A stretch of 64,000 nucleotides of DNA from the NCBI RefSeq assembly GCF_007997135.1, contig NZ_VORU01000006.1:1-64000 (forward strand). Direction: 5' to 3'. Position 1 is the stretch's first letter. Every line of letters starts with the position of its first letter. Source of the stretch: Aequorivita lipolytica. Lineage in GTDB: Bacteria > Bacteroidota > Bacteroidia > Flavobacteriales > Flavobacteriaceae. Made by a program: the position numbers and the translations under genes. This document shows, in pieces, positions 1 to 4,815 of the stretch. Below the pieces are notes generated by a model. It did not search any database. It worked only from the letters and a program-made list of their open reading frames with translations, and was not told the DNA's origin.

Positions 1-135
1 GCAACAGCGAAAGATTGGATTTTAAAATATTCCGAAGAATATTTGTCCAAAAAAGAAGCCTACGCTCGTGAACTGGCTATCAAAAGAAAAAAATCCAAAA
101 AATTTATCCAAAATCTTATCAACTCAGCTGAATAG
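1..135 (+). CDS. GIY-YIG nuclease family protein, C-terminal end (partial)
   Basis: The first 44 codons are open from the window edge and end in TAG at 133-135. The peptide (AKDW, then YAREL, then KRKKSKKFIQNLI) matches the C-terminal part of small GIY-YIG (URI-type) endonuclease-like proteins of about 80-95 residues, where a basic helix after the catalytic Glu closes the domain. The GIY and YIG strands and the catalytic residues lie outside the window. These small proteins are abundant in Bacteroidota and their role is not known; DNA repair or homing-like activity is inferred from the fold. The last codons overlap a tRNA-like 3' half (see next entry). Confidence 0.7.
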   Translation, partial: ATAKDWILKYSEEYLSKKEAYARELAIKRKKSKKFIQNLINSAE

Positions 136-188
136 CGCATCCCGATTTCCAATCGGGACGGTCGAAGGTTCGAATCCTTCTGCGATCA
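121..188 (+). pseudogene. tRNA-like 3' half (anticodon arm, T arm, 3' acceptor strand), Gly(TCC)-like
   Basis: A five-pair stem at 141-145/153-157 encloses the seven-base loop TTTCCAA, which would give anticodon TCC. A perfect T arm follows at 164-180 (stem GAAGG/CCTTC, loop TTCGAAT), then a 3' acceptor-like strand at 181-187 and an A discriminator. The 5' acceptor strand that should pair with 181-187 is absent, because that position is the coding end of the GIY-YIG gene, and the D arm around 121-139 is degenerate. It is therefore not a working tRNA. It could be a captured 3' tRNA end or an RNA processing or recognition element. Confidence 0.6.
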
Positions 189-193
189 CAGAC

Positions 194-218
194 AATCCCC
201 TATTCAGGGGATTTTTTG
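194..218 (+). terminator. Rho-independent terminator after the GIY-YIG/tRNA-like unit
   Basis: The stem AATCCCC (194-200) pairs with GGGGATT (207-213) around a TATTCA loop and is followed by T-rich sequence. It closes the transcript that carries the tRNA-like fragment. Confidence 0.7.
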
Positions 219-233
219 TTTTAACAAGCTGCC

Positions 234-2418: not shown

Positions 2419-4815
2419 CTAAACCGCAGTGGCTATTTCTACTTTACTTGCTGTTTTGGTGCTTTTCGTATTCGCTTCAGAAGATATAACGGCGTTCCAA
2501 TTCATTCCTTTTGAATATTTCTTGATACGATAATTATCATTTGGATCCATTGCCATTAGATAAATCCATTCGTTGTCCAAAAGACCTTTTAGATTTTCGT
2601 TTTTATTTAAAATACTCTCAATATTCTCAATCGGTGCCTGAATAATTACTGAAAGTCGCAGCGGTTGATGGTACATTTCATTATCGCTCTGGTTTACCGA
2701 TTCTAAAGGAAGTCCCATTTTTAAATCGCCACCATTGCCCTGCACTACACCAAATTTTCCAGTAATATTATGAGTTATTTTTGAACCGCCCCCAAAGGTT
2801 TCATTATCAACGGTCGAAAAATAATAATGGTTGTTGATCCACTGTGTAACCACCATCGGCCCCTGCATTATTCCTTCCAATGCGGCGCCTTCTAAATCTC
2901 GCTCCCAATCGTAAGAATGTAGAAAGCAACGTCCGTCAAGATTTAGATTTTTGGTCAATTTCCGCGGTGCGATTATAAAACTCGCATTTTTTGCAAGTCC
3001 CCATTCTGGTCGCGTTTCAGACCAATTATTGGCGTTGCTCTGGGCTTGCGAAACGCTCTTATTCTTATTCTTTTTATTTAAGCGTTCTGCAGTGGCATTA
3101 TCTTGTGCTTTGGCGAGATTAACTTTCAAATTTTGAATTGCGGAAGTCTGAACAGGTGGAACATCGGCGTCAAAGATTACAATTTCATCTGTTGTTGTGT
3201 TGTGTTCGGCTCCTATAAAAACCGTATCCTTTGGAATTTCAATAGCGTACTTCTCCATTAAAGTGTTACGTACATCTTTCAAATTGGCCATTTTGGCAAG
3301 CATCCGCGCGTTGTGTCTTCCAGGGCTTGCGGCACAGGCACCACAATCTAAACTGGAACCAAAGGGATTGTTTGCAGTATGGCTCCCGTGGCCTACAAAA
3401 AGAACCAGCGGCGCAAAGTTTTTCCAACCCGTGAGATCAAACGCTCCTTTTACAATTGCAACTTTTTCATCCAATGGAATGTCAAGTTGTTCGTGGTTTT
3501 CCCCTGAACACTTATTAATTTTTGGTTGGTATATTTTTTCATAATCGGTTGCTTGCAGGGTACTTTTTCTATAGTTATATCCTGGAAATAATGTTCTGCC
3601 AACCAGTGAAAAGCCATAAAAAATACCAGAACCTTCCACATAACCAAAGGCTGACGGGAGCATATTTTTCAATCTTCTCAAAAAGTATTCGCTGAAATTT
3701 TTCAGCTGAATTTTCTTGGCGAATTTTTCAGCTTTATCCGTCTTATTTTCCTGCGGTGTTTCTGAAACAACATAGGCAGAACCTAAAATTGGCGGACAAG
3801 ATTTACGAACAATACCGTCATTTTCATTTTTATAATCCATCGCAATTCCGAAGAAACCTGCGTAGCCGAAGGTTTCGTAGTTACCCGCATTTTCAATATG
3901 CCTGCGCATCATTTCAGAACGGGTGTCAATGCACAATGCAAATTGTGCATCGGGAATTTGTGGTTGTGAAGTTTTAGATTTCAATTCATTTTTATTGTTT
4001 TCTAGCGTTGTAGAAATTTGTTTTTGCCAACTCCCTTCCCATGCCTTTAACCAAAGATGGCGAAGCGTTAAGGTTTCCAAATGTTTTTTCGGAGAAGCGT
4101 TCTTCGGAAGAAACTCCGCTTTTAGTTGTTTCGCAATAAAAAGTCGCACGGCCAAGTAATCCAGCAATGTAATTGGATATTCTCTTTGCCAAGCTGTATC
4201 GTTTTCATTTCTATGCTTTATGTAGCCGGTCCAACCTGGAAGTGCGGCCAAATGGTGTTTGAAGATTTCTAAATGCTCTTTCTGTGAATAATCCTTCAAC
4301 AATATATCTAAGGTTTCAAGAGCTGTGGATGGAATATCGTTCGTATTTCGAACTTTGATTTCAGAATCATATTTAGCCAATTTTCTCCAAGAGTTATAAA
4401 AACCTTCATTTTTGTTCGGCATTTCCCATTCTGCCAATCCTTCGTCCATAAAGGCGGCGAGCCATTTTGAAACAAGCCTGTCTAGATTTGCATTGTGGTT
4501 TCTTTCAATGGTAACTGTTTCAATTTCCATCTGCTTCAGGGATTCTGAAGGTGTAGTTTTAAATCCGTTTTCTTTCAGCAAATTAGCCACTTCACTTTCC
4601 AGAATTTCATTGCGCTGCCAAGCTTGACGATAAACAGCAACTTCTGGAAATGATCTTGCTCCAAAAAGAGTTTCGGCTTGGTTCACGGCTTCGGAAAAGT
4701 GTTTCTTTTCAAACCCAACCAGCGGATTGGAAGTTACAAAGGTATACAGCGGCCAGGTGGTTCCAACAATTTCGGAAGCTTCATTTAAACTTTGCTGCAA
4801 TTTTGAATTCATCAT
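2419..4815 (-). CDS. dabA: DabA, carbonic-anhydrase-like subunit of the DAB inorganic-carbon pump (DUF2309)
   Basis: This 798-residue protein matches the UPF0753/DUF2309 family. DabA is a peripheral membrane protein with a beta-carbonic-anhydrase-like zinc site that converts CO2 to bicarbonate, coupled to ion flow through DabB. The expected zinc-site residues are visible: Cys295 and Asp297 in LCIDTRSE, His476 in VGHGSHT and Cys491 in LDCGAC; the His-Cys spacing of 15 equals that of characterised DabA. The start overlaps the dabB stop (ATGATGA), which implies translational coupling. It is near full family length and shows no damage. In a heterotroph it would supply bicarbonate for carboxylases; that use is inferred. 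Confidence 0.92.
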   Translation of the reverse strand: MMNSKLQQSLNEASEIVGTTWPLYTFVTSNPLVGFEKKHFSEAVNQAETLFGARSFPEVAVYRQAWQRNEILESEVANLLKENGFKTTPSESLKQMEIETVTIERNHNANLDRLVSKWLAAFMDEGLAEWEMPNKNEGFYNSWRKLAKYDSEIKVRNTNDIPSTALETLDILLKDYSQKEHLEIFKHHLAALPGWTGYIKHRNENDTAWQREYPITLLDYLAVRLFIAKQLKAEFLPKNASPKKHLETLTLRHLWLKAWEGSWQKQISTTLENNKNELKSKTSQPQIPDAQFALCIDTRSEMMRRHIENAGNYETFGYAGFFGIAMDYKNENDGIVRKSCPPILGSAYVVSETPQENKTDKAEKFAKKIQLKNFSEYFLRRLKNMLPSAFGYVEGSGIFYGFSLVGRTLFPGYNYRKSTLQATDYEKIYQPKINKCSGENHEQLDIPLDEKVAIVKGAFDLTGWKNFAPLVLFVGHGSHTANNPFGSSLDCGACAASPGRHNARMLAKMANLKDVRNTLMEKYAIEIPKDTVFIGAEHNTTTDEIVIFDADVPPVQTSAIQNLKVNLAKAQDNATAERLNKKNKNKSVSQAQSNANNWSETRPEWGLAKNASFIIAPRKLTKNLNLDGRCFLHSYDWERDLEGAALEGIMQGPMVVTQWINNHYYFSTVDNETFGGGSKITHNITGKFGVVQGNGGDLKMGLPLESVNQSDNEMYHQPLRLSVIIQAPIENIESILNKNENLKGLLDNEWIYLMAMDPNDNYRIKKYSKGMNWNAVISSEANTKSTKTASKVEIATAV

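Follow-up and report, generated by a model that had tools for sequence, protein, structure and literature searches.

A GIY-YIG nuclease family at tRNA genes of Bacteroidota, probably a selfish, homing-like element

The window analyzed here, a stretch of 64,000 nucleotides from Aequorivita lipolytica, opens within a small GIY-YIG nuclease gene that reads into a broken copy of a tRNA gene. Such arrangements are probably the work of a selfish, homing-like GIY-YIG nuclease that amplifies itself along with tRNA genes, as the phage nuclease SegB does. Observed in support of this reading were the position of the gene, tandem units and empty sites in sister genomes, the match between tail and tRNA, purifying selection on the protein, conserved palindromes, and recurrence of the same anatomy phylum-wide. 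The feature in the window is itself best explained as a truncated unit that closes an array at a tRNA-Ser(GCT)-Pro(TGG)-Arg(TCT) operon.

The window tail and tRNA sites in Aequorivita

The features at the start of the window, all on the forward strand, are as follows.

1–135 (+): 3' part (44 codons plus stop) of a nuclease gene from the tRNA-associated GIY-YIG family, based on the open reading frame and a PF01541 match
121–139 (+): D-arm remnant of tRNA-Arg(TCT), coding for the final nuclease codons, with similarity to tRNA-Arg from about 123
133–135 (+): TAG stop of the nuclease, contributed by the copied tRNA's D loop, as likewise in the sister genomes G015, G004, and G019
140–158 (+): palindrome TCCCGATTTCCAATCGGGA, with an 8-bp stem and 3-base loop, standing where the anticodon arm should be
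164–180 (+): T arm, GAAGG TTCGAAT CCTTC, equal to that of the class-A tRNA-Arg(TCT) of sister genomes
181–189 (+): 3' acceptor strand TGCGATC (the strand proper, 181–187) plus AC, the 5' partner being absent
194–220 (+): terminator-like hairpin with T run, belonging to the tRNA operon (AATCCCC..GGGGATT-TTTT; recognized by eye)

The nuclease gene starts abruptly and lacks its 5' part because base 1 of the window is also base 1 of its contig (C43). The remaining fragment of 44 residues, which covers only the part of the protein with residue E64, was aligned with five intact relatives from tRNA-Arg sites plus one from tRNA-Val (alignment A1), and all seven members matched PF01541, in agreement with the original prediction of a GIY-YIG frame at the window start. 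The perfect T arm, 3' acceptor strand, and terminator described downstream of it were recovered as well. In place of the proposed Gly(TCC)-like anticodon arm, however, positions 140–158 hold a 19-base palindrome, TCCCGATT-TCC-AATCGGGA, and since the predicted fold of this stretch has a stem of 8 bp and a loop of three bases, TCC is the loop of the palindrome and no anticodon; the copied tRNA is Arg(TCT). Nor has the gene replaced the 5' half of the tRNA, as had been supposed: the D arm is present and holds the stop codon, and the sole missing part is the 5' acceptor strand. The palindrome pattern was matched once in the window, against an expectation of 0.01. The tail scored 23.7 bits with the Rfam tRNA model (cut-off, 29), and ARAGORN called no tRNA gene anywhere in the window, so the tail is derived from a tRNA yet is no tRNA gene. 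Judged by its sequence, it is a broken tRNA-Arg(TCT) copy in which the D arm survives for the most part, along with the T arm, 3' acceptor strand, and operon terminator.

Searches of 28 Aequorivita genomes, including the window's own (G000), with window positions 1–230 returned a match in all 28. In 24 the match lay within a cluster of tRNA-Ser(GCT), tRNA-Pro(TGG), and tRNA-Arg(TCT); outside those 24 were G013 and G016, in which only tRNA-Arg was called, G017, whose contig starts inside the locus, and the window's own genome. The order in sister genomes is tRNA-Ser, tRNA-Pro, tRNA-Arg(TCT), and a terminator, followed by repeated blocks of GIY-YIG gene, broken tRNA, and terminator; empty sites were also found. 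As read in G015, G019, G005, and G004, the unit consists of an intact tRNA-Arg, its terminator, and a nuclease gene whose ATG lies at or just past the T run and whose stop codon falls within the D arm of the following tRNA copy or a short way past it; that copy continues with palindrome, T arm, acceptor strand, and terminator. Where units are in tandem, the next nuclease ATG comes directly after this terminator. Two units each are present in G005 and G004, at least two in G019 across a contig gap, and one in G015, and the distal tRNA copies in G004 and G005 are mispaired or wrecked. The site is filled in G000, G004, G005, G015, and G019, giving an intact nuclease (or one interrupted solely by a contig end) in 5 of the 28 genomes, and is empty in G022 and others. 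In G022, the empty tRNA-Arg(TCT) has a similar terminator and, 2.2 kb on, the gene that also follows the window tail. A deletion scar in G026 retains the first codons of a lost nuclease, and G023 carries a nuclease relic. The gene at window positions 2422–4815 was discarded as a species marker because only 5 of the 28 genomes have it, and gyrB was used instead.

In the assembly of the window's own genome, tRNA-Arg(TCT) is absent from the contigs, and tRNA-Pro(TGG) is not among the typed tRNAs; two further matches, 83 and 88 bases long, are untyped. An intact tRNA-Gly(TCC), the tRNA to which the tail had been likened, does occur elsewhere in this genome but is not the parent. Contig C2 ends shortly past tRNA-Ser(GCT), within broken tRNA-Pro copies bearing the palindrome TCCCGATTTAGCATCGGGA. 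Most simply, the parent tRNA-Arg(TCT) is missing from the assembly as it sits in a contig gap, and the gap between C2 and C43 would hold tRNA-Pro and tRNA-Arg, then the beginning of the nuclease unit(s). Assemblies were seen to break within arrays at the contig ends of C2 and C43 in G000, C131 and C147 in G019, and C110 in G025.

The unit anatomy has an exception in G004, in which the upstream tRNA-Arg is reduced to its 3' half and the remainder has apparently been displaced by an integrative element; by eye, an apparent element of ∼7 kb (C2:107319–114300) lies between an intact tRNA-Arg(TCT) and the 3' half. Also by eye, a 3' part of tRNA-Arg(TCT) lies beside the start of an integrase-like gene in the window's genome (C3:3215–3500). 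Such apparent targeting of the tRNA-Arg gene would be in keeping with the window tail being a scar left at its attachment site by an integrase-carrying element that makes use of the 3' end of the tRNA. This origin is barely conceivable, as between the tRNA copies of the units read in G005, G015, G019, and G004 there is the nuclease gene alone and no integrase. Elements that integrate at a tRNA and restore its 3' end duplicate a piece of the tRNA, leave an intact tRNA, and carry integrases. The nuclease family also leaves an intact tRNA beside a duplicated piece, but its units hold the nuclease only, and nearly the whole tRNA, beyond the 3' end, is duplicated.

The tRNA-Arg(TCT) genes of Aequorivita (L039–L069) fall into two allele classes, told apart by base pairs in the acceptor, anticodon stem, and T stem. 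Both are dispersed over the gyrB tree, whose strong branches force at least four changes with G017 counted as class B. This scatter suggests repeated replacement of the tRNA-Arg(TCT) gene or sorting of tandem copies. Class A was found in all five nuclease genomes (5/10 versus 0/17; Fisher p = 0.003, with the class of the window's genome taken from its tail and G017, in which the full tRNA was unread, omitted). The idea of an element that carries a resistant, immune tRNA allele was nevertheless dropped as a general rule, because relics occur with class B (G026 and G023) and tRNA-Val is the same with or without a nuclease.

The latter tRNA, tRNA-Val(TAC), is identical over 76 bases in the 26 genomes with an ARAGORN call. 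A nuclease follows it in six of these (G004, G005, G006, G019, G023, and G025, in the last of which a contig end falls inside the nuclease), and none was seen in the remaining 20, two of which (G009 and G016) have short downstream sequence (<240 bp). Filled sites differ from empty ones by an insertion that sits past the terminator and closes with a second terminator. The single-contig genome G005 carries five nuclease copies at tRNA-Val, the first four spaced 357–360 bp. In one tRNA-Val tail of this genome (C1:1929480–1929700; L244), the palindrome TCCCGAAGCAAGTTCGGGA is present in eight copies, most of them tandem and separated by 5 bases. Derivation of the palindrome loop from a leftover anticodon loop was considered and rejected, the loop TTTACA of a tRNA-Val tail recurring in a broken tRNA-Ala copy.

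Further broken tRNA copies were noted at other sites. Copies of tRNA-Pro, 86 bp long and with a palindrome replacing the anticodon arm, are arrayed in tandem at the end of C2 in the window's genome (L038/L073; three copies up to the contig end) and in G005 (11 copies, L044 about 420–1380), where the array lies directly upstream of tRNA-Pro(TGG); within the stretches read, no nuclease was present at tRNA-Pro. In the window's genome, broken copies of a tRNA-Gly, two tRNA-Leu, and a tRNA-Ala (C36:340–440, C24:450517, C27:335620, and C23:2507) bear TCCCGA..TCGGGA palindromes in their D, T, or anticodon arms, likewise with no nuclease in the stretches read.

The nuclease family across Bacteroidota

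A wider alignment (A2) was made of 52 proteins chosen from 76 usable ones. All 52 matched PF01541, with a weak match to T5orf172 in 10, and Y6, Y17, G19, R28, and E64 are invariant; the Y, Y, R, and E of this set are presumably the GIY-YIG active-site residues. The protein is minimal, a single domain of about 84 amino acids with no separate DNA-binding domain. For the AlphaFold2 model (mean pLDDT 86.5), the nearest solved folds are UPF0213 protein BH0048 and Slx1, in agreement with sequence profiles. Single-domain GIY-YIG proteins of the UPF0213/YhbQ type are the closest solved structures by profile (PDB 1zg2, E = 4.9e-10; 1ywl, E = 5e-8), with 1zg2 closest by fold as well. Both entries are titled hypothetical proteins, and proteins of the UPF0213/YhbQ type are not known to be tRNA-locus elements. 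Slx1 follows as the next closest fold (Foldseek E = 0.024; profile E = 0.0015) and cleaves branched DNA, an activity that would suit hairpin or cruciform targets. Slx1 is a host repair enzyme, with the partner Slx4 and extra domains, and is not known to be mobile. The profile phrog_314, annotated “homing endonuclease,” matched 16 of the 52 members (best E = 4.8e-7), the first member being unmatched. Two other assignments were rejected: PADLOC gave only weak matches to defence systems (PDC-S14 models, 10/52 and 9/52; UzuA, 7/52), and for a phage origin there was one weak IMG/VR relative, with a “distant” plasmid search using window positions 1–230 returning empty.

Among Aequorivita pairs with estimable dS, dN/dS of the nuclease ranged over 0.08–0.24, as compared to 0.02–0.05 for gyrB, and therefore the protein is under selection, weaker than that on gyrB. 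Nuclease dS between Aequorivita species was about equal to gyrB dS, so no recent horizontal transfer is seen, and the patchy distribution of the nuclease could result from loss alone. Purifying selection is also consistent with a domesticated nuclease that serves its host (e.g., through on-demand amplification of tRNA genes or upkeep of tRNA loci) rather than itself, and the SegB report describes a benefit of SegB-driven tRNA amplification to phages under attack (PMC13096335). We regard a host-serving role as unlikely, given that the nuclease was not seen at 20 of 26 tRNA-Val sites, occurs intact, or truncated solely by a contig end, at just 5 of the 28 tRNA-Arg sites, and has left a scar in G026 and a relic in G023; moreover, the additional copies, being broken tRNAs, contribute nothing to tRNA dose.

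A profile search over 395 evenly drawn Bacteroidota genomes gave matches at E ≤ 1e-10 in 236, a limit that also admits other GIY-YIG proteins (e.g., one on contig C30 of the window's genome), and at E ≤ 1e-18 in 133. Loci numbering 170 were classified. Eighty were named loci (the best 80 of 123 confirmed relatives), mostly from Bacteroidota, with one record each under the titles Calditrichaeota and Neomarinimicrobiota; the other 90 came from 90 phylum genomes (30 from the search and 60 hand-picked among the listed matches, one per genome, with several contig-start ones skipped). An intact same-strand tRNA lay within 300 bp upstream of the nuclease in 132 of the 170 loci, at a median distance of 45 bp. 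The nuclease ran into an intact tRNA at the gene end in another 7, contig edges accounted for 18, and 13 showed neither arrangement. When only the phylum set was taken and the upstream distance was capped at 200 bp, the count was 67/90. When Rfam was run on 17 loci lacking an upstream tRNA and three others, many proved to have a tRNA at the nuclease end or farther upstream. As a control, the other PF01541 GIY-YIG loci of the window's genome were inspected, and a tRNA was found within their 3.2 kb in 0 of 6. The survey thus bears out the earlier statement that genes of this kind are frequent in Bacteroidota.

The commonest upstream tRNAs were Val(TAC) (41), Ala(GGC) (24), Asp (15), Gly(GCC) (15), Asn (13), Arg(TCT) (11), and Lys (6). 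At least two nuclease copies were present in 16/80 named and 28/90 phylum loci. A mirror form also occurs, in which a broken copy is followed by the nuclease and then by the intact tRNA, whose 5' half can code for the nuclease C terminus (L277). By eye, other small GIY-YIG genes of the window's genome (L001 and L003, on C30 and C44) lie amid different REP-like repeats, which may hint at a wider link of GIY-YIG genes to repeats.

An arrangement due to chance, i.e., a tandem tRNA duplication decayed to a pseudogene beside an unrelated nuclease gene, would account for tails that are decayed tRNA copies and for the nuclease-free pseudo-copies of tRNA-Pro, -Gly, -Leu, and -Ala in the same genome (within the stretches read). 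It is already contradicted by the survey, which places 139 of 170 related nucleases at an intact tRNA, whereas the 300-bp surroundings of the 33 tRNAs make up 0.6% of the window's genome, and it is extremely unlikely.

Of 122 tails tested, 95 were scorable (at least 30 against any tRNA), and 94 of these matched the type of the local tRNA, with 17.0 expected; the tail's own tRNA was the best match for 73. This similarity indicates that the tails are made from, or kept similar to, the local tRNA. Tails were present in most homologues, so the outcome named at the start as a refutation, a tail not conserved among homologues, did not occur. A nuclease tree was built from 77 of the 80 named proteins (three rows with an internal stop were dropped) and two typed proteins; based on few columns and with many forks unresolved, it required 24 changes of tRNA type, versus 45.5 with shuffled labels. 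Its strong branches force at least five switches for Val and at least three each for Ala and Arg.

The presence of a tail in most homologues, together with retention of the palindrome as a covarying hairpin (see below), would also be expected if the tail were a functional RNA, namely a tRNA-like mRNA 3' end by which the nuclease transcript is recognized or stabilized. A conserved tRNA-like fold of this kind had been proposed, but the tails did not display it: the T arm was intact in 37/121 last tails, as compared to 110/121 neighbouring intact tRNAs. The mispaired or wrecked distal copies in G004 and G005 and the absent 5' acceptor strand also count against it, and the window tail folds barely better than shuffled sequence (z = −1.30; 22/200 shuffles equally good). 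A functional RNA tail is accordingly rated very unlikely.

Palindromes in tails and genomes

The palindrome core TCCCG..CGGGA was present in 128/212 broken-copy regions and 108/161 loci, as compared to 4/4240 shuffles and 0/98 and 1/89 flanks. Among 92 distinct palindromes, the two base pairs next to the core vary yet remain paired (90/92 and 63/70), and the third (19/37) is already at the loop. Palindromes occupy the anticodon arm, often the T loop too, and, in copies of other tRNAs, the D loop. Across the window's genome, TCCCGAN{3,9}TCGGGA was matched 51 times and a reversed-motif control once. Of the 50 sites taken into a proximity test, 9 lay within 300 bp of an intact tRNA, versus 0.3 expected (6/33 when counted as clusters).

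Palindrome density was related to the nuclease at two scales. Outside the fetched loci, whose palindromes were subtracted, the eight Aequorivita genomes with a nuclease at tRNA-Arg or tRNA-Val contained 5.8–20.9 palindromes per Mb, as compared to 2.0–11.4 in the 20 others (one-sided p = 1.4e-5, with kinship not corrected), and three comparisons within gyrB groups agree. At least seven of these 20 (G008, G009, G011, G016, G020, G021, and G022) have a more distant match elsewhere at E ≤ 1e-18, and among these seven only G022 has many palindromes. For the 395 Bacteroidota genomes, with no palindromes subtracted, the median per Mb was 4.32 in the 133 with a match at E ≤ 1e-18, a limit chosen after the data were seen, 1.58 in the 103 with a weaker match, and 0.80 in the 159 with no match. 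Permutation within families attained the observed value in 0/2000 trials, and the control motif was not raised. Of the seven testable families, f4 and f17 were not significant alone, and f8 ran in the opposite direction (5 and 3 genomes).

By analogy to RAYT/REP, the nuclease and the palindromes may form one parasitic system, in which the GIY-YIG protein would recognize, cut at, or mobilize TCCCG..CGGGA hairpins, the palindromes would be non-autonomous partners, and the broken tRNA copies would be their preferred landing sites. This proposal extends, and does not exclude, the explanation by a selfish nuclease. The pattern would then be that of a two-part Bacteroidota parasite, a tandem minimal GIY-YIG nuclease with mobile, mostly 15–22-base palindromes, standing as a counterpart of RAYT/REP; we put this forward tentatively, as a possibility that we think somewhat doubtful. 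Palindromes would be inserted into, or swapped for, hairpin arms of spare tRNA copies and dispersed in proportion to the nuclease, and tRNA genes would offer safe, essential, self-repairing homes. The single-system proposal is likewise possible rather than probable. It agrees with the abundance of palindromes in broken copies relative to controls, with their covarying pairs, with their occupancy of D, anticodon, and T loops, and with densities that track the nuclease both in Aequorivita and in the 395 genomes. That tracking is a correlation only, however, with an E limit set post hoc, family f8 reversed, and f4 and f17 not significant; matches within that limit in at least seven of the other Aequorivita genomes are accompanied by many palindromes only in G022, and a palindrome entering a tRNA arm was not caught between close strains.

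The likeness to REP/RAYT systems lies in a low-copy gene for a small enzyme that tracks, by correlation, many dispersed short palindromes. RAYTs are HUH Y1 transposases and not GIY-YIG proteins. No HUH Y1 transposase domain (TnpA_REP) was found by Pfam on the 52 members, which gave only GIY-YIG and weak T5orf172 matches.

Relation to SegB and proposed mechanism

The nearest functional parallel is SegB, described (PMC13096335) as a free-standing GIY-YIG homing endonuclease of T-even phages that is located among tRNA genes and cuts inside them, with the motif RAWTSGAAC at 23/83 cut sites. In that report, SegB is required for tandem amplification of tRNA and nuclease through homologous recombination, and homologues are reported in phages, including those of Bacteroidota (PMC13096335). 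RAWTSGAAC is the reverse complement of GTTCGAATC (written GTTCSAWTY), the tRNA T loop, which is one of the places where palindromes interrupt the tails of the family described here. The two systems share a nuclease family and a tRNA-gene setting, with cleavage by the chromosomal family presumed. As for a SegB-like element, the nuclease has no intron or intein host, and both filled and empty sites exist (tRNA-Val, 6/26 filled; tRNA-Arg). In contrast, SegB is phage-borne, whereas the present family is chromosomal, about 84 amino acids long, and single-domain, with one weak IMG/VR relative, and each of its genes has an intact tRNA copy on one side and, on the other, a broken one with palindromes. 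SegB is also the larger protein.

We infer that the nuclease cuts tRNA genes, most likely at the T loop or in a hairpin arm. Homologous recombination between tRNA copies, in repairing the break, would amplify nuclease and tRNA together, one tRNA copy would be held intact by selection such that the cell retains its tRNA, and the nuclease would persist as a selfish, homing-like element with its essential target gene unbroken. The original suggestion of a mobile nuclease that rebuilds its target with a carried tRNA piece survives in spirit, in that a piece of tRNA is duplicated and one tRNA is left intact; the part assigned to Gly(TCC) does not. Several observations count against a homing-like reading: the intact tRNA stays beside the nuclease and is not visibly protected, dS is near that of gyrB, constraint is weaker than on gyrB, the tRNA-Val allele is invariant, no separate DNA-binding domain is present, the closest solved relatives are UPF0213 and Slx1 and not homing enzymes, and 13/170 loci show no tRNA under the criteria applied.

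Among the open-access papers listed by literature searches, none dealt with chromosomal GIY-YIG genes at Bacteroidota tRNA genes. Neither the nuclease domain nor the idea of homing is new in itself; what appears to be new is the chromosomal, widespread, tRNA-sandwiched form with palindromes. If the selfish, homing-like reading is true, a large share of Bacteroidota carry an unrecognized selfish nuclease family at their tRNA genes, which would account for open reading frames that end in tRNA-like sequence, for tandem pseudo-tRNAs, and for short palindromes. It would also explain draft genomes and metagenome-assembled genomes that seem tRNA-deficient, because assemblies break at the arrays. Such a family would link the tRNA amplification newly described for SegB with bacterial chromosomes, and a driver of short palindromes outside RAYT systems would become directly testable.
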